Origin: Candidatus Thalassarchaeaceae archaeon
GTDB taxonomy: Archaea; Thermoplasmatota; Poseidoniia; Poseidoniales; Thalassarchaeaceae
DNA: 64,000 bases
Reading direction: 5' to 3'
Assembly: GCA_029250605.1 (NCBI GenBank)
Contig: JAQXEZ010000014.1
Coordinates: forward strand, 62,001-126,000
Positions 53,146-63,784 of the stretch are shown here, one piece after another. The notes under the pieces are model-generated. The model ran no database searches and was not told the DNA's origin. It saw only the letters and a list, made by a program, of their open reading frames with translations. Positions within the stretch are counted from its first letter, which is position 1, and each line of letters starts with the position of its first letter. The position numbers and the translations under genes were made by a program.

Positions 53146-54891
53146 GTGAGAGTGCTGTTTGCACACGGTTTCGAAGGTAGTCCGTCGGGGTCAAAACCCA
53201 CGTACATGAAGGAAGCCCTTGGGTGGGACGTCACTGCACCAAAGATGTCAGAGTTAGGATGGAGCATTGCGAGTCAGACGGAGGTCCTCCTTCGTCTCCT
53301 GGATGAAGATGAGTTTGACCTAGTCGTGGGCTCCTCCATGGGGGGACTAGCCGTGGCAAATGCCTCCTCAATGAGACCCCAGATGGAAATCAAGCTGTTG
53401 CTGATTGCCCCTGCATTCGGTCTTGCGGAGAACTGGGAAGGAATGGGAGAAACTGGTAGGAGCGCATGGAAGACGACCGGGGAGAGGCGCTACACGGGCT
53501 TCGAGTTGGACATTGTCCTCCCATGGGAGTTCATGGAATCGGCAGAGGAGATGTCATGGCCCGTACCAGCCCACCCAACGGCAATAATGCACGGGAAATT
53601 CGACGAAGTGGTCCCAATCAGCTTTTCTCGCAAGGTGGCGGAAGATTGCGAGGACGTTAGGCTTCACGAGATCGATGACAGCCATCGAATGAAGAAGTCA
53701 ATGCGGTTCATTCCGGAAATCGCTTCGAATCTGATTGAAGGAACTGAGATTTCTTCGTTCGAGATGCTTGAAGACGATGATGGAGATGCCCCGGAGAGTG
53801 AGGAGAAACTTGAGGAACCCGAGGAGCCATCACCGGAAGTGAGCGAAAGCGAGGAGGCGAGTGGGGTTGAGGATCAACCCGACATCGAACGACTAGAGGC
53901 TGAGATGAAGGAACTCGAAGCAGAGCTTGAGAAGAAGAAGACCGCTCTAGAGGAATCGAAGGTTGAGGCCCTCCCAGAGCAAAGTGCTCTGGAAGAGGAT
54001 GGCCCCCAGGAGGAAAGGGAACGGGAGTCGATAGAGGCCAGCGATGCGATAATCAAGGCTGATGAGGCAGTGGAACTGGCTCGGAAAGAGGTCGAGGAGG
54101 CTACCCAGAGAGCAGAGGAAGAGGGGGATGAGGCCGAGGAGGCTCGGTTGATCGCGGAAATTGAGGAGGATGAGGCGAAGGAGGCTCAGGCCGATGCAGA
54201 TGCAGCCAAGAGGAGGCTCGATGAGGCCGTCAGGAAAGCCGAGTTAGCCGAAAAGAACGCGGAGCAGTTCACCGAGGAAATTGAGAAAGAGAAGAGAGAG
54301 GATTTGTTACTGGAGAGGATTGGCCAGAGGAGGGGTGACCTAGATTGGGCTACGATCGGAGCGAATTTCCAAGGCAAAAACCCCGATGACCTCACCATGA
54401 TAAACGGAATCGACGAATTCACAGCGAAGAAGTTGAATTCTCTGGGGATATTCACGTACGAGCAAATCTCCAGGTTTGATGAAGAGATTTCGGAGGCGGT
54501 CAATGATTACCTTGAGTTGCTGCCCGGGAAGGTCACAGAGTTTGCCTGGGCAAAACAGGCCATCACAATGCTTGGTCTACAGGGGGTCGACAAGTCTGCA
54601 AGAAGACAGGAAGATGATGATAGCGTGATTGCAAACCTCAGCGCAGGCCAAATCAAGTGGGCCCAGATAGGCAAGGCAGGAGACAGGAAGTCCGACGTCC
54701 TGACTATGATTAAGGGAGTTGATGCCGAGACGGAGAAGAAGTTGAAGGTCCTTGGAATAAGGACCTTCGAACAGATATCGAGAATGGATAATGAGACTGC
54801 CGAAGCGGTGAATGGCGCACTGGGTCTAGTGCCAGGAAGGGTGTCTAAGATGATGTGGGCGGAACAGGCCAAGGCCCTGAAGAAGGGTTAG
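53146..54891 (+). CDS. Alpha/beta hydrolase (YqiA/UPF0227-like) fused to coiled coil and two HhH-like modules
   Basis: FAHGFEGSPSGSKPTY, VVGSSMGGLAVA nucleophile elbow, HGKFDEVVP, DDSH; acidic coiled coil; two copies of WAxIG...LTMIxGxD...KKL..LGI.T.EQISR.D. Confidence 0.85.
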   Translation: MRVLFAHGFEGSPSGSKPTYMKEALGWDVTAPKMSELGWSIASQTEVLLRLLDEDEFDLVVGSSMGGLAVANASSMRPQMEIKLLLIAPAFGLAENWEGMGETGRSAWKTTGERRYTGFELDIVLPWEFMESAEEMSWPVPAHPTAIMHGKFDEVVPISFSRKVAEDCEDVRLHEIDDSHRMKKSMRFIPEIASNLIEGTEISSFEMLEDDDGDAPESEEKLEEPEEPSPEVSESEEASGVEDQPDIERLEAEMKELEAELEKKKTALEESKVEALPEQSALEEDGPQEERERESIEASDAIIKADEAVELARKEVEEATQRAEEEGDEAEEARLIAEIEEDEAKEAQADADAAKRRLDEAVRKAELAEKNAEQFTEEIEKEKREDLLLERIGQRRGDLDWATIGANFQGKNPDDLTMINGIDEFTAKKLNSLGIFTYEQISRFDEEISEAVNDYLELLPGKVTEFAWAKQAITMLGLQGVDKSARRQEDDDSVIANLSAGQIKWAQIGKAGDRKSDVLTMIKGVDAETEKKLKVLGIRTFEQISRMDNETAEAVNGALGLVPGRVSKMMWAEQAKALKKG

Positions 54892-54901
54892 TTGTTTTTT
54901 C

Positions 54902-55621
54902 TCATTTCCCGGTCGAGCCGAGGAAATACTCCCCTATCTCTGGATCAGTCAGGATGTGCTGAGCATCCCCCGAATGCACAATCATGCCATTTGAGATGAT
55001 GTAGCCCCGATCTGACCTAGCGAGGGAGAGTCTGGCGTTCTGCTCGACGATCAGGATTGTGATCCCCTCGTCACGAAGTGAGTCTATGCTCTGGATAATC
55101 TGCTGCTGGTAGAGTGGTGAGAGAGCCGCAGTAGGTTCGTCTAGCAGGAGGAACTTGGGGTCTGATATCAGAGCCCGGGAAATTGCTAGCATCTGCCTCT
55201 CACCACCAGAAAGGGATGCTGCGAGGTCGTATTCCCTGTTCCTCAGGTCCGGGAACATCTCCAATGACCGCTCGATCCTCTCGCTAAGGACTCCCTGCGA
55301 GAGGGAGTTCCCCCCCATCTGGAGGTTCTCAAGCACCGACAGGGACGGAAACACGTTGTCCACCTGTGGGACGTATGCGATGCCATGGTTGACTAGTTGG
55401 TCTGTCCTCCATCCGGAGACGTCCTGACCTCTGTACTGCACCCCTCCACGATAGTAGGTAGCGATTCCGAAGATCGTCTTGATGAGAGTGGATTTGCCAC
55501 AGCCGTTGGGGCCGATTATCGTTACGAACTCGCCCTCGTCGACGTGCATGTCGATCCCATACAGGATCTGAACCGAACCATAGCCGCCCTCTAGGTCAGA
55601 GACATCCAGGACCCTGGTCAT
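54902..55621 (-). CDS. livF: ABC transporter ATPase LivF-like
   Basis: IIGPNGCGKSTLIKTIFG, SLSGGERQMLAISRALISDPKFLLLDEPTAAL. Confidence 0.93.
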   Translation of the reverse strand: MTRVLDVSDLEGGYGSVQILYGIDMHVDEGEFVTIIGPNGCGKSTLIKTIFGIATYYRGGVQYRGQDVSGWRTDQLVNHGIAYVPQVDNVFPSLSVLENLQMGGNSLSQGVLSERIERSLEMFPDLRNREYDLAASLSGGERQMLAISRALISDPKFLLLDEPTAALSPLYQQQIIQSIDSLRDEGITILIVEQNARLSLARSDRGYIISNGMIVHSGDAQHILTDPEIGEYFLGSTGK

Positions 55622-56415
55622 TCCTCCTCCTCCCTTTCTTCTCCAGCGGCTCCGAGGTAGGCCTCGATGACTGCCCTGTTCCCCTTGACCTGGTCGGGAG
55701 TGCCCTGCATGAGGACCTCTCCCTCGTTCATCACTACGATTCTGTCCACGCCTTGTCGGAGGATGAAGTCCATATTGTGCTCGATGATCAAGACCGATAT
55801 CCCGGTCTCGTCCACCATCTTCCTGAGGTTGTTGAATATCTTCATCGCAAGAGGCCCCGCCACTCCTGCTACTGGCTCGTCCAAGAGGAGGAGTTTCGGC
55901 ACGCCCATCATCGATCTCCCGATGTCTACGAGTTTGCTCTGCCCGCCGGAAAGTTCGCTAGTCAGGTTGTGTGCCATGTGAGGGACCTCGAGTTGATCGA
56001 GGGTGGAGTATGCCCTCTCGAGCCGTTCCTCCTCGTTTGGGTTCCACCACGGCAGCAAGAGTGCCCTCATCCGATCAAGGAACGACTTGCCGAATTGGTT
56101 TCGCGGAGGCACGAGATCGTTCTCTATCACGGTCATCTCGCGCCACAGGCGGGTGTGCTGGAACGTCCGGGTCAGGCCGAATTTCTGAATCTGGTCTGGC
56201 CTCATGTCTGTGACGTCCTTGCCGAAGACCTCGACGGTCCCGGCCGTCTTCTCGAGGAGACCGCTGATGCAGTTGAACGTCGTTGACTTGCCACATCCAT
56301 TGGGGCCTATCAGGCCAACGAACTCTCCCTCTTGGACATCGAAGGATACGTCGTCCACTGCTACTAGCCCTCCGAACATCTTTCGCAGCCCCTTGACTCT
56401 CAGTGCGGGATTCAT
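55618..56415 (-). CDS. livG: ABC transporter ATPase LivG-like
   Basis: LIGPNGCGKSTTFNCISGLL, LSGGQSKLVDIGRSMMGVPKLLLLDEPVAGV; overlaps livF start. Confidence 0.93.
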   Translation of the reverse strand: MNPALRVKGLRKMFGGLVAVDDVSFDVQEGEFVGLIGPNGCGKSTTFNCISGLLEKTAGTVEVFGKDVTDMRPDQIQKFGLTRTFQHTRLWREMTVIENDLVPPRNQFGKSFLDRMRALLLPWWNPNEEERLERAYSTLDQLEVPHMAHNLTSELSGGQSKLVDIGRSMMGVPKLLLLDEPVAGVAGPLAMKIFNNLRKMVDETGISVLIIEHNMDFILRQGVDRIVVMNEGEVLMQGTPDQVKGNRAVIEAYLGAAGEEREEEE

Positions 56416-59400
56416 TCGAACTCACCCCCGGTTGGCCTCTCTGGCCTGCTAGGGACCTCTGGGAGCAACCCTCGTGGGTTGTACTTCAGCGAGAATAGCA
56501 TTAGTAGGCCGACCAGTAGCAACTTCACGTATGCCATTCCAGCACCCGCGATGGACACCTCGCCCGTGATGTCGGTGGCCTCTAGTATCGACCTCTCCCC
56601 CATCACCAGGGCGGTGAACGCGAAAAGTACCGTCCCGCAGACTCCAACCTCCAAGACTGCCCTCGATCTGATTGCGTATCCGATGACGAGTATCAGGAAG
56701 AATGCCCTCGTGACCTCCCACTGGTCAGTGATAACCCAAGCGAAGAGGCTGTCGATCCGGCCTGCTGTCGTGTAGAGAGGGAGGTCGGGAGTGCTCGCTG
56801 CGACTAGGACGTTGAAGACGAATTCCATCAGGACTATGATGAACGCGCCAATGACCATGCCCCTGTTGTTGGCAGTCCCGCCTATCACGAAGGCCGCCCA
56901 TACTAGGAAGGTTGACTTTGCCGGGTTCATGAAGGGAGCCTCTATCCCTGATAGTCTCCATATCCAGATCGCCCCTGCCAAGGCTGCGATTGCGGCCCCG
57001 AGGGCGAGGGCCGTTGCCTTGTGGGTGAGGACGTCGTGGCCGTGGTGCTGTGCGACCTCCTCGTCCTCTCTGATGGCCTTCAGAATCCTGCCCCATGGGG
57101 ATTCCATGAGAGTGTCCAGGAGGAACCAGACGACCATGACTGAGACGAGTCCGAATAATGCAAGGAAGGTGAAGTACGATGCCGGCTCTCCGAGATTCAG
57201 AAGGTCGCTAACGAACATTGACGGGGAGTCGGCCATTTCGCTCTTGCAGGAGTTGATCACTCCGGCCGCAGAGGTGAGCTCCTCTCCCGGACCGTACTTC
57301 GTGCTACCGCAGAACCACCACTCGTACAGCGGCTTCGGATAGCTGAAGATACCCTGTGCGGATACGATTATACCCGTCCGTAGCAGGGGCTCGGCTTGCA
57401 TCATATACTTGAGCATCTCACCCAGGGAAATGGTGACGATTGCGAAGTAATCCGTCCTTAGCCGTGCAGTGGGATATGCCAGCCCCCATCCAATCGCTGC
57501 TGCGACCGCCAGCGCTGCGATTACCGCAGGGACCATGCTCCAGCCATATCCGTGCATCTCCTTGGGCGCGGTTAGGATTCCGACCAAGATAGCACCAATC
57601 GCGACGAAGAATATGACTCCGAAGTTCACCATCCCGGTGTAACCGGTATGGAGGTTCAACGAGAAGCACATCAGGATGAATATGCATAGGGTAGAGATTA
57701 CGTTCGAAACCTGGAACAGTTTGTCCGCCCTCCATGTCTCGGACCCTGTGATGGGAAGCCACCAGAGGAATGCAAGGAGAATCAGCAGCAGGGCCAAGAA
57801 TGCTACGTTCGACCCGACTCTTCCCTTCCTTCCATAGGGATCTGGAGAGAATCCCATACCCAGCTTCGATGACGTTTCGGCAGTCTTCCCCTTCACCCAC
57901 GCAGTGGTAATCGTTGCCTGGTCCTTGATCCAAGTCCTAGCTACGAGGATAGCATCTGAGTGCCACTTGTCAACGGGCTTAATTCTGGAACTCGCACCTT
58001 CCCAGTAGGTCGGGAGTTTTGACAAGAGGGACGTGATAACCCCCAGCAATGCCTCGACAGCATCTTTGATTTTGCCTTCCCGTGGGACTACATAGCGCAC
58101 ATCATCTAGATCCACGACACCATCCCTGTTCGCGTCGAATAAATTTGGCTCATCTCCCCTTAGTATCCTGATTCCCTCGTATATCGCGAATGCCCAAAGA
58201 AGGAGGGGCACGAGTGGCCAAATCAGATCTCCAGCATCGGAGATCAGGTTCATCGTCTGGATCTCGGTCTGCATCAGATCGAGCCATGACTCGTCCAGAG
58301 CGGATGGTGATTCCGAGAAGTAGGGGGAGTCCTCGACGAGCAGGGTGCCATCGTCCCTGCCTGTGAGGACCTCTAGGTTAGTCACGGAGTAGTCCCCAAT
58401 TGAGGTGTCTAGCTCCTCGATGCGCGAGGCTTCCTCGGCGGATGGGTCGATGATTAGTCGCAGGTGTGCCAGTTCCGCCTTCATGTCATCCAGTGGTTGG
58501 GAGCAGGTCGCCCCGCAGCCGCCGTCGGCTAGAGACTCGCTGCTGATGAATGAGGAGAACCTGTGAAAGAAGTATGCTGCTATGGCAACGAGGGAGAACG
58601 TCTGGGCCTTGTCCGATCTCCCGCCTCTCCAGTGATGCAGCCCGAGCATTCCCGTAGGCAGGAAAGCCAGGGCCGCTCTCGTGTTCCTGGTTCCATCCAT
58701 GTCTGAGTCGGCCTTCTTCCTCATCCTCTCTATCTTCCACTCCTCCCATGCATGGCCTATCCCCTGAGGCATCACCAGGAGGATCGCGATCAGGAAGGCG
58801 TAGGGCATTATGTCCTGCAAGGAGGCATAATTCGACCTATCGAGGGGGAATCCAACCCCCTGGAGGACGGGGGTGGTCACCGCTCTGACCAATCCAACGA
58901 TGAGCGAAGCGAAGATCGCACCGGGGATCGAGCCGATAGTCCCGAGGACGATCACCGCGAATGCCGGCAGCAGCAGGTTGAATGCGGTTCCCGGATTGCC
59001 GAGGACGGTCATTGCGAACACCGCACCACCGGTCCCGGAGATGCCTGCTGAGAGGAATGCACTCGTCATCTGCACCCTCTCGACATTGATCCCACTGCTG
59101 GCTGCGAGGTCCGGGTTGTCGGCTACTGCCCTCATGCGCATACCCAAGCGAGTCTTGGTGAGCAACAGGTAGAGCATTATCGCCGATGCGAAGATCGTGG
59201 TTGCTACTGCACCCTTGAAGAATACGTAGTGATTTGTCGCTTCAATTACGCATGGCATGAGTTCGTTGGTGAGTGGGTCGCGTGCGAGGTTGTCGACATC
59301 GTAGAACTCTATGGCTGGCTTGGAACCACCTGAACCGGGGTTGTCGTAACTCCAGCCCTCTGTTACAATCCTCTCGAGGATGGGTTCCCCGGTAGCCTCG

Positions 59401-60518
59401 TCGAAGAGGAGATCCCCCGTCTCTGGATCGGTGGATTGCTCGCAGTTGTTGTGAGTGTACTCCTGCGGGTTCGCATCGAACCGACCATCGGCGTCTAGGT
59501 CCTCGCCAGAACCCGGGATGACGTCGCCTATCTGCGATCCGAGGGGGACTAGCCCCTGGTCTGCATGCTGCTGCGTGTAGGTCTCGACGTCGAAGACGCC
59601 GTTGCCGTTGGCGTCCTCGCTGTCGTTGAGTGACCTGTCTCCGAGTATTAGCCTCAGTTTGTTCGTGGGAATCGTCCACTTCTGGATGCTTTGGGTGCTG
59701 ATGTCGAAGTCTGGATAGAATTGTCTCTTCTTTGAGGAGAACCTGAGGTAGAAAAGAGCCCGCAGGGCCAAGGCCACCCCTAGTGATGCGATCATCATCA
59801 CCTGCGGGGTCGCGTCCCTGAGTCTGAATCCCCGGTAGACCAGCAAGTCGGTCATCACCCCGGCAATCCCCGTTAGGATGAAGGCGGCCACGACCACTCT
59901 GAACAGCAGTGACCATACCAGGACCCCATCCTTGGGGGCATCGAACAGGGGGGAGTAGGAATCGGTCCAAGAGATGACGAACACTACGAACATCCCCACC
60001 ATGAAGAACTCAGACTGTGCGAAGTTCCCGTACCTCTGGACCTTGTAGGTCAGGGTGAGCCCCAAGGCTATGGAGAGGTATGTCGACGAGTGTGTGAGCG
60101 TGTCCCTCCCGATGGAGACGGAGTCGAAAGTGATCATTGCGGTGGAATCTAGGCCGCTGAATAGGAACTCCAGAGTGATGAGCGCGACTAGTAGGAGGAA
60201 GAGCGGCGAACCTGCCACCCCGACGCTACGCAGGAGGCTCGGTTTCGCGTCATCATAGAGTATCTTGACGTAGAAGAACCCGCATGAGATAGCTTGGAGG
60301 ACTTGGAAGAGCCAGATCAGGTCGTTTGGGAGGTTCCCCCCTAGGAAGTAGTCCAACAGGTTCAGCGTGCTGATCTGGTTGAGGAGGCCACAGAACGCAT
60401 CCGCCATCAGCAGAGTCGCTACAATCAGCCTCCTTCTGCCTCTGGTGAGTTCATCCCAATGTTCCTTCTTGAGACTCCTGAGACTTGAAATTAACTCGAT
60501 GTTCCTTCCCCCCAGCAC
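56412..60518 (-). CDS. livHM: Fused LivH-LivM permease with Ca-binding-like insertions
   Basis: LivH: GLTLTYKVQRYGNFAQSEFFMVGMF...TKTRLGMRMRAVADNPDLAASSGINVERV; LivM: CFSLNLHTGYTGMVNFGVIFFVAIGAI...RTDYFAIVTISLGEML; single 1368-aa ORF. Confidence 0.9.
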   Translation of the reverse strand: MLGGRNIELISSLRSLKKEHWDELTRGRRRLIVATLLMADAFCGLLNQISTLNLLDYFLGGNLPNDLIWLFQVLQAISCGFFYVKILYDDAKPSLLRSVGVAGSPLFLLLVALITLEFLFSGLDSTAMITFDSVSIGRDTLTHSSTYLSIALGLTLTYKVQRYGNFAQSEFFMVGMFVVFVISWTDSYSPLFDAPKDGVLVWSLLFRVVVAAFILTGIAGVMTDLLVYRGFRLRDATPQVMMIASLGVALALRALFYLRFSSKKRQFYPDFDISTQSIQKWTIPTNKLRLILGDRSLNDSEDANGNGVFDVETYTQQHADQGLVPLGSQIGDVIPGSGEDLDADGRFDANPQEYTHNNCEQSTDPETGDLLFDEATGEPILERIVTEGWSYDNPGSGGSKPAIEFYDVDNLARDPLTNELMPCVIEATNHYVFFKGAVATTIFASAIMLYLLLTKTRLGMRMRAVADNPDLAASSGINVERVQMTSAFLSAGISGTGGAVFAMTVLGNPGTAFNLLLPAFAVIVLGTIGSIPGAIFASLIVGLVRAVTTPVLQGVGFPLDRSNYASLQDIMPYAFLIAILLVMPQGIGHAWEEWKIERMRKKADSDMDGTRNTRAALAFLPTGMLGLHHWRGGRSDKAQTFSLVAIAAYFFHRFSSFISSESLADGGCGATCSQPLDDMKAELAHLRLIIDPSAEEASRIEELDTSIGDYSVTNLEVLTGRDDGTLLVEDSPYFSESPSALDESWLDLMQTEIQTMNLISDAGDLIWPLVPLLLWAFAIYEGIRILRGDEPNLFDANRDGVVDLDDVRYVVPREGKIKDAVEALLGVITSLLSKLPTYWEGASSRIKPVDKWHSDAILVARTWIKDQATITTAWVKGKTAETSSKLGMGFSPDPYGRKGRVGSNVAFLALLLILLAFLWWLPITGSETWRADKLFQVSNVISTLCIFILMCFSLNLHTGYTGMVNFGVIFFVAIGAILVGILTAPKEMHGYGWSMVPAVIAALAVAAAIGWGLAYPTARLRTDYFAIVTISLGEMLKYMMQAEPLLRTGIIVSAQGIFSYPKPLYEWWFCGSTKYGPGEELTSAAGVINSCKSEMADSPSMFVSDLLNLGEPASYFTFLALFGLVSVMVVWFLLDTLMESPWGRILKAIREDEEVAQHHGHDVLTHKATALALGAAIAALAGAIWIWRLSGIEAPFMNPAKSTFLVWAAFVIGGTANNRGMVIGAFIIVLMEFVFNVLVAASTPDLPLYTTAGRIDSLFAWVITDQWEVTRAFFLILVIGYAIRSRAVLEVGVCGTVLFAFTALVMGERSILEATDITGEVSIAGAGMAYVKLLLVGLLMLFSLKYNPRGLLPEVPSRPERPTGGEFE

Positions 60519-60625: not shown

Positions 60626-63600
60626 TCAGAGATCAGTAATGCCTGTGGATCCCCAGTGCTGGTTGCAGTCGAATGACAGCGATTCAGCAGTGCCGTCGGT
60701 TGAGACTGACCCAGTGTAGGACCCGATGCAGTAACCGGATCCCGGGGTGTCACCGTTCGCTAGGAACGTGATCGTGCCTGATGCACCGTTCCATCCCGAT
60801 CCTGCCGTACCTGCAATCGCCTGAGAGGCGGTGATGCCTGGTGTGGTCAGGAAGGTGAAGGCGGAGAACGCCATCATGGTCAGAGCGTCGAACGCCTCAG
60901 CGGTGAAGATACCCGATCCGCATGGTGGCGTGGTCGCGCACAGGTAGGCGAAGGTCTGGGAGACCTCGCTTGCTGCTGCCGCTGCTGGCTTGGTTGCGAT
61001 GACGCCGTTCAGGTTGGCTGCGCTCGTGTAGTTCCCGATCGCGGTCTCTGCGATTCCGTCGGTTCCGTAGATCTGTCCAGCGAATCCAGCTGCTGCTAGC
61101 TCGCCGATGATCATGCCGCCGTCGGAGTTGTAGGACACCGTAACCACAGATGTGCAGCTGTTGTCCGAGACTGCCTGGACTACTGATTGGTAGTCCGTGG
61201 TGGTGGTCTCGTCGTAGCCGATCTGAGTGCATAGGGTGTTGCCTGCTGCCTCCCAGTTCGTCTTGAACGAGTCAGCAAGACCTGCGCCGTATGCGTTTAC
61301 CATGTGGATCAGTGCCACGCCGTCAGTCGCCTCGCCGTTCGCGGTCAGTAGGTCTGATAGTGCCAGACCCTGCCCTGCGTCGCTTGGGACGACCCTGAAG
61401 AAGTCAGGGTAAGCGGTTGCGTCGCTGAGTGCTGGAGATGTGCTCGCGTACGAGATCATTGGGATCCCTGCTGCTGAGAGGACTGCGTTAGCCCCTATCG
61501 AAGCTCCGGAGCATGCTGCTCCGGCCACTCCCCATACGCCTGCGTCGACTAGTGCCTGAGCAGAGGTAGCTGCAGTCGTTCCGTCGCAAGCTGTGTCGCC
61601 CCAGACGATCTCGAACTGGACACCGTTGCTGTATGCAATGGTGTTAGCCAGAGATAGGCCGATGCTAGCTGCTGCCTGGAATGGAACCCAGAAGTCGCCG
61701 ATTGCTGGGCTGGTTGCGTCGCCCATGAAGCCGATCTTCACAGTAGTGCCTGCGAAGACTACGTCGGCTAGTCCGCCGGTTGCCGTCCACATCCTGTCGC
61801 AGTTGAAGTACTGGCCGAAAGTTGGGACGTGGTGGAAGGTGCACACATCGTACCCTGACCCGGCAACGTCTCCGTTGGACAGGAACACGTGAGTGCCGCT
61901 TGCGCCTGCAAATCCGTCTCCGCTGCCTTCCATGTTGATGTGGTTAGCCATGTTGGCTCCATCTTCGTGGGCTGCTGCGGCGCCGATCATCATGACTGCG
62001 TCGTATGCCTCGGAGGTAAAGATGCCAGTCGAGCAGACGGAATCGGCTGCGCATGTAGCTGCGAAGTCACCGCTTCCGGAAGCTGCCCTAGGCTTGGTGT
62101 TCTGGACACCGTTGGTAACCTCGGGTGCGTTGAACGACTCGAGGGCTGCCTCTCCAGCGAATCCATCCGCCCCGAAGACCGGTAGGGCTGCGCCCAGTCC
62201 GGCCATTGTCTCGAGGATCAGTGCCGCGTCCGTGTTGTACGCGATCAGAACGACGGAATCGCAGGATCCGGCGTCGATGACGCCCTGAACGAGGCTGGAT
62301 GCATCGGTTAGGGTGGTCTCATCGTAGCCTGCCTGCGTGCATAGGGTGTTTCCTGCTGCTTCCCAGTTCGACTTGAACGAGTCAGCGAGGCCAGCACCGT
62401 AAGCGTTGACCATGTGCAGGAGAGCGGGGCTGGTTACCCCAGCTGCCGCGACCATGTCGGACATTGCCTCACCCTGGATCGCATCGCTTGGGACCACTCT
62501 GTAGAAGTGTGGGTAAGCGGTTGCGTCACTGAGTGCTGGAGATGTGCTCGCGAACGAGACCATCGGGATCCCAGCTGCTGAGAGGACTGCGTTAGCCCCT
62601 ATCGAAGCGCCGGAGCAAGCTGCTCCAGCCACTGCGACTACTCCAGAGTTAATCAGAGCCTGAGCAGAGGTACCTGCAGTGGTTCCATCGCACCCGGTGT
62701 CACCGTATACTAATTCGTAGACGATGTCGTTTCCGTTAGCGTCGTCGTGGCCTGCTGCGTTCAGAGCCGTGATGGCTGCTGCCGTAGCGAAGTCGAAACC
62801 TGGTCCGAAGTTACCGATTGGGCCTGTAGAGTCGTACATTGCTCCGATCTTGATGACGGTTGTTGGTAGTGGTAGCGGCTCTCCATCGAACATCGGGTTA
62901 GCGGTGCCCATGTAGTGAGCTGCGATCTCGTCAGCTATCGCGTGCGCGATGTCTGCGTCGAATCCGACCACGTTGTTGTCTGCGTCATAGCTCTCGAAAG
63001 GAGCGTAGAACGGGTCCGTGCAGATCCTCAGTGCTCCGGAGTCCAGGACACCAGCGAGGTCGCTGTTTCCACTGGGCTCAGGGTACGCGGTAGCCGTGTC
63101 AGCAGTGCTGTCATCCGCAAGGGTGACTGCACCGTTGAAGGATGCTGCGTAAATCGAGTCATACTCTCCCGAGTCGACTATAGCGCTGATTGCCACGTTT
63201 AGGGCATCTAGGAGGTCGCCCGAGTCCTCGCGGACTGCGAAACCGAAGTTCTCATCGGAGAAGGTCGTCATCAGAGTTCCTTCCAAGGAGAGCACGGGTG
63301 CATCTCCCATTGCGTACATCACGTCACCGTTGTTCAGTGCTGCGATAACTGATGGGAAGTCCTCGTACCCAGATGTAGTAGCCATTGCAAGGTTCGCATC
63401 TGCGTACAGGTCAGAGGTCGTCCCGGACTGTACTCCGATGGTGACTCCGGCTGCATTCAGCTCGGAGACATCGCTGATGGATGCGGATCCGGATCCACCG
63501 ATTACACCCTGGCTACTAGTGTAGTAGGCAGTGGTGAAGTCGACGACTTCGTCACGCGCAGCGGTCTTGGTCATGGCTGAGATGATGACATCGCACATCT

Positions 63601-63784
63601 CGCCGGCATTCAGGTTGGGGATGATGGGGTCCCAAGCGGACTCCACCCATACTACGCTGACGTCGCTGGCCGCATTGTCTGCGTCCCAGTCGTCGTCCCC
63701 GCCTGCGCATCCAGCGAGACTAGCCGCTAGCATGCTCAGGGTAAGCATCATTGCTATCATTTTCTTGTTATACATAGTGTTCAC
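60626..63784 (-). CDS. Multidomain substrate-binding lipoprotein: permuted SBP_bac_3 plus two tandem LivJ-like domains
   Basis: Lipobox LAASLAGC; SBP_3 C-terminal part (41-218) precedes N-terminal part (243-292); then two LivJ-like repeats. Start may be ATG at 63775. Confidence 0.88.
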   Translation of the reverse strand: MNTMYNKKMIAMMLTLSMLAASLAGCAGGDDDWDADNAASDVSVVWVESAWDPIIPNLNAGEMCDVIISAMTKTAARDEVVDFTTAYYTSSQGVIGGSGSASISDVSELNAAGVTIGVQSGTTSDLYADANLAMATTSGYEDFPSVIAALNNGDVMYAMGDAPVLSLEGTLMTTFSDENFGFAVREDSGDLLDALNVAISAIVDSGEYDSIYAASFNGAVTLADDSTADTATAYPEPSGNSDLAGVLDSGALRICTDPFYAPFESYDADNNVVGFDADIAHAIADEIAAHYMGTANPMFDGEPLPLPTTVIKIGAMYDSTGPIGNFGPGFDFATAAAITALNAAGHDDANGNDIVYELVYGDTGCDGTTAGTSAQALINSGVVAVAGAACSGASIGANAVLSAAGIPMVSFASTSPALSDATAYPHFYRVVPSDAIQGEAMSDMVAAAGVTSPALLHMVNAYGAGLADSFKSNWEAAGNTLCTQAGYDETTLTDASSLVQGVIDAGSCDSVVLIAYNTDAALILETMAGLGAALPVFGADGFAGEAALESFNAPEVTNGVQNTKPRAASGSGDFAATCAADSVCSTGIFTSEAYDAVMMIGAAAAHEDGANMANHINMEGSGDGFAGASGTHVFLSNGDVAGSGYDVCTFHHVPTFGQYFNCDRMWTATGGLADVVFAGTTVKIGFMGDATSPAIGDFWVPFQAAASIGLSLANTIAYSNGVQFEIVWGDTACDGTTAATSAQALVDAGVWGVAGAACSGASIGANAVLSAAGIPMISYASTSPALSDATAYPDFFRVVPSDAGQGLALSDLLTANGEATDGVALIHMVNAYGAGLADSFKTNWEAAGNTLCTQIGYDETTTTDYQSVVQAVSDNSCTSVVTVSYNSDGGMIIGELAAAGFAGQIYGTDGIAETAIGNYTSAANLNGVIATKPAAAAASEVSQTFAYLCATTPPCGSGIFTAEAFDALTMMAFSAFTFLTTPGITASQAIAGTAGSGWNGASGTITFLANGDTPGSGYCIGSYTGSVSTDGTAESLSFDCNQHWGSTGITDL
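61231..61530. repeat. Coding repeat copy B (LivJ-like domain 2), near-identical to 62338..62636
   Basis: e.g. agtgctggagatgtgctcgcg[t/a]acgaga[t/c]cat[t/c]gggatccc[t/a]gctgctgagaggactgcgttagcccctatcgaag in both. Confidence 0.85.
62338..62636. repeat. Coding repeat copy A (LivJ-like domain 1), near-identical to 61231..61530
   Basis: Direct repeat, offset about 1.1 kb. Confidence 0.85.

Follow-up and report, generated by a model that had tools for sequence, protein, structure and literature searches.

The SBP_3 domain of a three-receptor lipoprotein encoded in the analysed stretch of DNA (64,000 nucleotides, called the window below) is, by sequence alignment, almost certainly circularly permuted. 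This permutation is the main point, and it was overlooked in the earlier note, which had described one SBP_3-like and two tandem LivJ-like domains on one chain. That domain content was confirmed by Pfam: SBP_bac_3 (PF00497) scores 91.0 bits (cut-off 26.4), Peripla_BP_6 167.9 bits and ANF_receptor 196.2 bits in the window protein, each in two stretches and all far above cut-off. The two SBP_bac_3 stretches stand in reversed order, with profile positions 37-129 (aa 41-216) first and 1-37 (aa 241-290) after them, and the PDB alignment to AncCDT-1 (5t0w) is reversed as well (aa 42-215 match 62-244; aa 241-288 match 14-61). The chain is laid out as follows.

63710..63775 (-), lipoprotein signal peptide from the likely ATG, MYNKKMIAMMLTLSMLAASLAG (from the sequence and comparison with the ortholog start)
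63707-63709 (-), lipobox Cys directly after the signal peptide, invariant in 33 orthologs
63131..63670 (-), aa 39-218, first-encoded segment of the permuted SBP_3 (S3B), equal to SBP_3 profile 37-132
63071..63130 (-), aa 219-238, closing linker, FNGAVTLADDSTADTATAYP region, bridging the old C and N termini and homologous to the linker of the sister-order permutant
62900..63070 (-), aa 239-295, second-encoded segment of the permuted SBP_3 (S3A), equal to SBP_3 profile 1-37
61790..62863 (-), aa 308-665, LivJ-type domain 1 (Peripla_BP_6 / ANF_receptor), from Pfam, AlphaFold and Foldseek
60641..61747 (-), aa 680-1048, LivJ-type domain 2, from Pfam, AlphaFold and Foldseek

S3B contains strand 2 of lobe 1, then lobe 2 and then the return to lobe 1, while S3A contains strand 1 and helix 1 and bears the TDPFYAPFE ligand motif. 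The linear order of SBP_bac_3 (strand 1 first, in one stretch) is obtained after rotation alone. The rotated domain gives one unbroken Pfam stretch over profile 1-129 (105.1 bits vs 95.9 in two stretches), its PDB matches turn full length (for example AncCDT-1 15-244), and it aligns with L043 and L039, canonical-order cousins from the same archaeal family, at 54% over 252 aa with one single-residue gap. A second copy of S3A was absent from the window and from five neighbourhoods. The single full complement of the domain in each chain ruled out a pair of partial tandem SBP_3 copies.

Structure prediction, which the earlier note had called for, was carried out with AlphaFold and gave a pLDDT of 84.7 and a pTM of 0.59 for the full-length chain (81 and 0.74 for the permuted SBP_3 module). 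In Foldseek, the LivJ part matched LivJ proteins and mGluR ectodomains, and the module matched amino-acid SBPs with ~176 of 278 residues aligned. Such partial coverage is expected when a permutation meets a sequential aligner, since Foldseek follows chain order only; among the 50 PDB matches listed for the module, no well-fitting alignment extends over the entire permuted chain. The widest alignment was to the SBD1-SBD2 tandem of GlnPQ (6h30; 257-261 columns at 17-18 A), probably because this tandem presents both parts in the permuted order.

The earlier note had counted a lipoprotein of 1052 aa. Its lipoprotein nature stands; the length is that of ORF 60626..63784(-) counted from a GTG. In the closest ortholog (91% identical) the frame opens just three codons ahead of a conserved ATG (CNTMYNKK), leaving the upstream GTG without conservation, and the true start is therefore probably the ATG at 63775, which would give a protein of 1049 aa and a gene at 60626-63775(-). 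The earlier note had also raised a misassembly of separate genes. This was ruled out by recurrence across relatives: alignments that span all or nearly all of residues 1-1052 exist in >30 related genomes (59-91% identity), single-cell genomes (AG-/AH- isolates) among them, and the fusion is thus genuine. Dozens of genomes of Ca. Thalassarchaeaceae (Marine Group IIb) show the same three-receptor architecture, and the named relatives belong to Ca. Thalassarchaeaceae / Ca. Poseidoniales. When named loci with both SBP_3 segments were compared, 74 out of 76 were permuted and the other two encode different proteins without LivJ domains; the fused protein has the same permuted order in 74/74. Outside the class, no reversed pair of stretches was present among the SBP_3 matches listed for 390 genomes of the phylum.

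Both SBP_3 segments are under purifying selection, with pairwise dN/dS of ~0-0.16 for S3B and S3A alike, similar to the LivJ domains. The residues invariant in 33 orthologs (W, T, T, R, QxGT, GD and C-x-D-x-x-Y-x-PFE) are divided between the two segments, and we take them to be the amino-acid contacts of LAO/HisJ/GlnH-type receptors. Aligned to solved SBPs, the domain has the alpha-amino-acid ligand site of SBP_bac_3: Asp/Tyr after strand 1, an aromatic residue, S/T..R, GT and the lobe-2 Asp. The ligand site would be composite: S3A would supply its Asp/Tyr motif, and S3B its Trp, Thr/Arg and lobe-2 Asp. The module is very probably a functional amino-acid receptor. Duplication and truncation would pass through a stage in which the segments are tandem-pair leftovers, halves of different domains that are nonfunctional or are completed by another chain through a domain swap, and the AlphaFold model leaves room for a swapped dimer. 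Such leftovers are very improbable here, as each chain has exactly one full domain complement and selection acts on both segments, which share the invariant ligand residues between them.

The lipoprotein gene is the first of a four-gene Liv operon, and the complete downstream Liv permease/ATPase set described earlier was found by Pfam:

56412..60518 (-), LivH-LivM fused permease, 1368 aa
55618..56415 (-), LivG-type ATPase
54902..55621 (-), LivF-type ATPase

LivJ-type receptor, LivH, LivM, LivG and LivF are all present, as in a HAAT (LivJ-LivHMGF) system. The LivH-LivM fusion is the sole BPD_transp_2 gene found in the source genome; the operon permease is LivHM and not HEQRo-type as in a PAAT system, and the receptors sit on a separate lipoprotein ORF, unfused to the permease. 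Within its LivH half, the LivH-LivM chain also has a long Asp-rich, calcium-loop-like insert, and a further segment separates the two halves. Next to the operon, at 53146-54891(+), an ORF appears to start with an N-terminus resembling alpha/beta-hydrolases, continue with a long, charged, coiled stretch and end in a pair of similar repeats (LTMINGIDEFTAKKL / LTMIKGVDAETEKKL). The order [S3B-S3A-LivJ-LivJ]-LivHM-LivG-LivF is kept at every locus with a long enough contig. In sister family f2 (Marine Group IIa by kinship), LivJ-LivJ or LivJ alone stands ahead of LivHM, and no SBP_3 domain was matched in f2 among the genomes listed. Since f2 has LivJ receptors before LivHM without SBP_3, the SBP_3 domain was probably added in front of a pre-existing LivJ receptor.

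Three operons (L058, L059 and L110) are mosaics, with an SBP_3 module 87-100% identical to that of the window and LivJ domains and LivHM at 57-65%; L112 shows the opposite pattern. This suggests recombination between strains with a breakpoint between SBP_3 and LivJ1, and such separate recombination of the SBP_3 and LivJ parts fits exchangeable modules. Other variants were noted among the relatives. In genome G051, the permuted protein (L037:3819-7709(+)) has a zinc ribbon, a probable membrane helix and Asp-rich repeats ahead of it in place of the lipoprotein signal; the repeats resemble thrombospondin type 3 repeats. In G047, Pfam places a LivJ-type domain fused ahead of an SBP_bac_5 peptide receptor (L054:3742-6897(-)), and the two permease genes after it look DppB/DppC-like. 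This archaeal family may habitually mix receptor folds within a chain.

The lipoprotein with its permuted SBP_3 and two LivJ domains is probably the receptor of a Liv-type (HAAT) amino-acid ABC importer in which all three modules would feed LivHM-GF. Three binding modules, one type II (the permuted SBP_3) and two type I (LivJ), would hang from one lipid anchor. In the permuted module a linker of ~30 residues would join the old ends, and the new ends would be neighbours in lobe 1, where helix 1 is followed by strand 2 in the canonical order. Lipid anchor and LivJ1 would then both attach to the module at a single spot; because the new ends lie adjacent in this topology-based geometry, the module would be a pendant between the anchor and LivJ1. 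It would most likely bind a polar or cationic amino acid, the LivJ domains would bind other amino acids, and the three receptors would take turns on the single LivHM-GF translocator. Multi-ligand capture is the most economical reading. On balance, the SBP_3 module would deliver its ligand to LivHM.

The usual docking partners of SBP_3 domains are HisMQ/GlnP-type permeases, not LivHM. The earlier note had made the same point, and the source genome does hold a separate HisMQ-type operon at C7, composed of an SBP_3 and two HEQRo permeases. That the permuted SBP_3 is the sole PAAT receptor of the genome was ruled out by this canonical PAAT operon; because the operon has its own SBP_3, the permuted one is an extra receptor. 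The HisMQ-type permease could instead receive the ligand of the permuted module in trans, and HEQRo permease matches accompany the permuted protein in most of its genomes. Delivery of this kind seems rather improbable: the module is tethered to LivJ and encoded with LivHM wherever the flank suffices, the HisMQ operon is already served by its own SBP_3, and genome G051 (86% complete) has the permuted protein and no HEQRo permease match.

The unusual pairing of SBP_3 with LivHM could also mean that the module is a sensor or gate, in which a second ligand allosterically modulates LivJ capture or docking and is itself undelivered. The recombination of SBP_3 apart from LivJ in L058, L059 and L110, as if no permease match were needed, points the same way. 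We consider this unlikely. The sequence data give no sign of coupling, the ligand-site residues are those of transport SBPs, and a permutant in the sister order (see below) adjoins an ordinary amino-acid permease. In the GlnPQ-type importers (Lactococcus lactis), several receptors on one chain likewise serve one translocator, and the two receptor domains of GlnPQ, the multi-receptor chain studied best, act largely independently (PMC8025302), which argues against assuming allostery. In GlnPQ, however, the domains share a single fold, keep the canonical order and are part of the permease chain, whereas the window encodes a separate lipoprotein with two predicted fold types. Delivery to LivHM by an independent SBP_3 module remains the preferred reading.

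Six genomes from a sister order of the same archaeal class encode this domain in a second permuted form, whose opening lies where the chain passes from lobe 1 into lobe 2; one of the six copies is truncated. By kinship this order is probably Marine Group III. The second permutant is a stand-alone protein of ~320-350 aa with a signal peptide and a C-terminal membrane anchor, encoded (lobe 2 first) at these loci:

L167:2753-3763 (+), stand-alone permuted SBP_3
L168:3372-4412 (+), stand-alone permuted SBP_3
L169:5454-6482 (+), stand-alone permuted SBP_3
L170:2631-3590 (+), stand-alone permuted SBP_3
L171:5652-6389 (-), stand-alone permuted SBP_3

At L169, the one locus examined for its neighbours, the gene is divergent from genes for a GlnP/HisM-type permease and a GlnQ-type ATPase, so that a HEQRo-type permease lies alongside, as in PAAT systems. 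The closing linkers FDGAVVLTDDTDANTATSYP (L103, Thalassarchaeaceae) and FGDEIVVLTDDTDANTADAYP (L170, sister order) are nearly identical, and none of 2000 shuffles was as good; for the window's own linker against the sister-order linker, 16 out of 5000 shuffles were as good. Because both permutants have this near-identical linker, they quite likely share one common ring closure and differ in their openings.

In the tree, a single clade (100/99) unites both permutants with the two canonical cousins, apart from the canonical SBP_3s of the phylum, and the cousins nest within the Thalassarchaeaceae permutants. Forcing the Thalassarchaeaceae permutants into one clade was rejected mildly (AU p = 0.02), while a constraint that keeps all permutants together and the cousins apart was not rejected (p = 0.285). 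The nesting of the cousins would require a reversal or a more complex history, and reversal to canonical order in the cousins is doubtful. Circular permutation by duplication and truncation is a described mechanism (PMC3320104). A tandem duplication with truncation would probably precede the split between Thalassarchaeaceae and the sister order, and the two lineages would retain different reading windows of the duplicated domain. Within the class, a tandem A-B-A-B intermediate was looked for and not found, and the tandem SBP_3 arrays of family f17 are canonical repeats; one f17 locus, L157 (G404:C3:64300-68300), has four tandem canonical SBP_3 domains in one ORF. We tentatively consider a single closure in the Poseidoniia ancestor that was later reopened in lobe 1 (Thalassarchaeaceae), at the lobe crossing (sister order) and at the original point (two genomes). 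If this is true, all three rotations of one receptor domain occur in one archaeal class and in two transporter classes.

The window protein resembles the SBP_bac_3 polar-amino-acid receptors (GlnPQ SBD1/2 6h30, AncCDT-1 5t0w, LAO/HisJ) in sequence family, ligand-site motifs and probably in its lobes, but it is permuted, fused to two LivJ domains and encoded in a Liv operon. With the LivJ-LivHMGF branched-chain amino-acid importer it has LivJ domains, LivHM, LivG and LivF in common, although its receptor is LivJ-LivJ with a permuted SBP_3 ahead and LivH and LivM form one chain. The ionotropic glutamate receptor ectodomain (type I ATD and type II LBD) has on one chain the two receptor folds predicted for the window protein; the window protein, in contrast, has them in the opposite order, lacks a channel insert between its LBD halves and is encoded in an ABC operon. 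By Pfam, its Lig_chan-Glu_bd match is weak and below cut-off and Lig_chan is absent, a short linker alone joining S3B to S3A. For the same organisms, most MGIIb subclades have branched-chain and L-amino-acid SBPs according to Tully 2019 (PMC6336850), where the transporters are annotated as present, and the parts of that paper seen do not mention a shared chain or a permutation. A single chain that combines type I with type II receptors to serve one translocator lies outside the tandem designs that we found described.

Circularly permuted binding proteins are commonly engineered as biosensors. Our search for natural circular permutation of SBPs in the full-text literature, with subscription journals mostly outside its scope, gave engineered cases, reviews or unrelated work alone; natural permutation was thus not found described for the SBP_3 receptor family in the literature searched, which is no proof of absence. 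Other permuted SBP_3 domains may be overlooked, because order-sensitive annotation gives two partial matches. The hosts are marine archaea of high abundance that are presumed to feed on protein and amino acids. In these lineages, two natural permutants of a textbook receptor fold have been retained under selection over a wide phylogenetic distance, and they make it testable whether moved chain ends alter ligand capture, permease docking or the choice of permease class.
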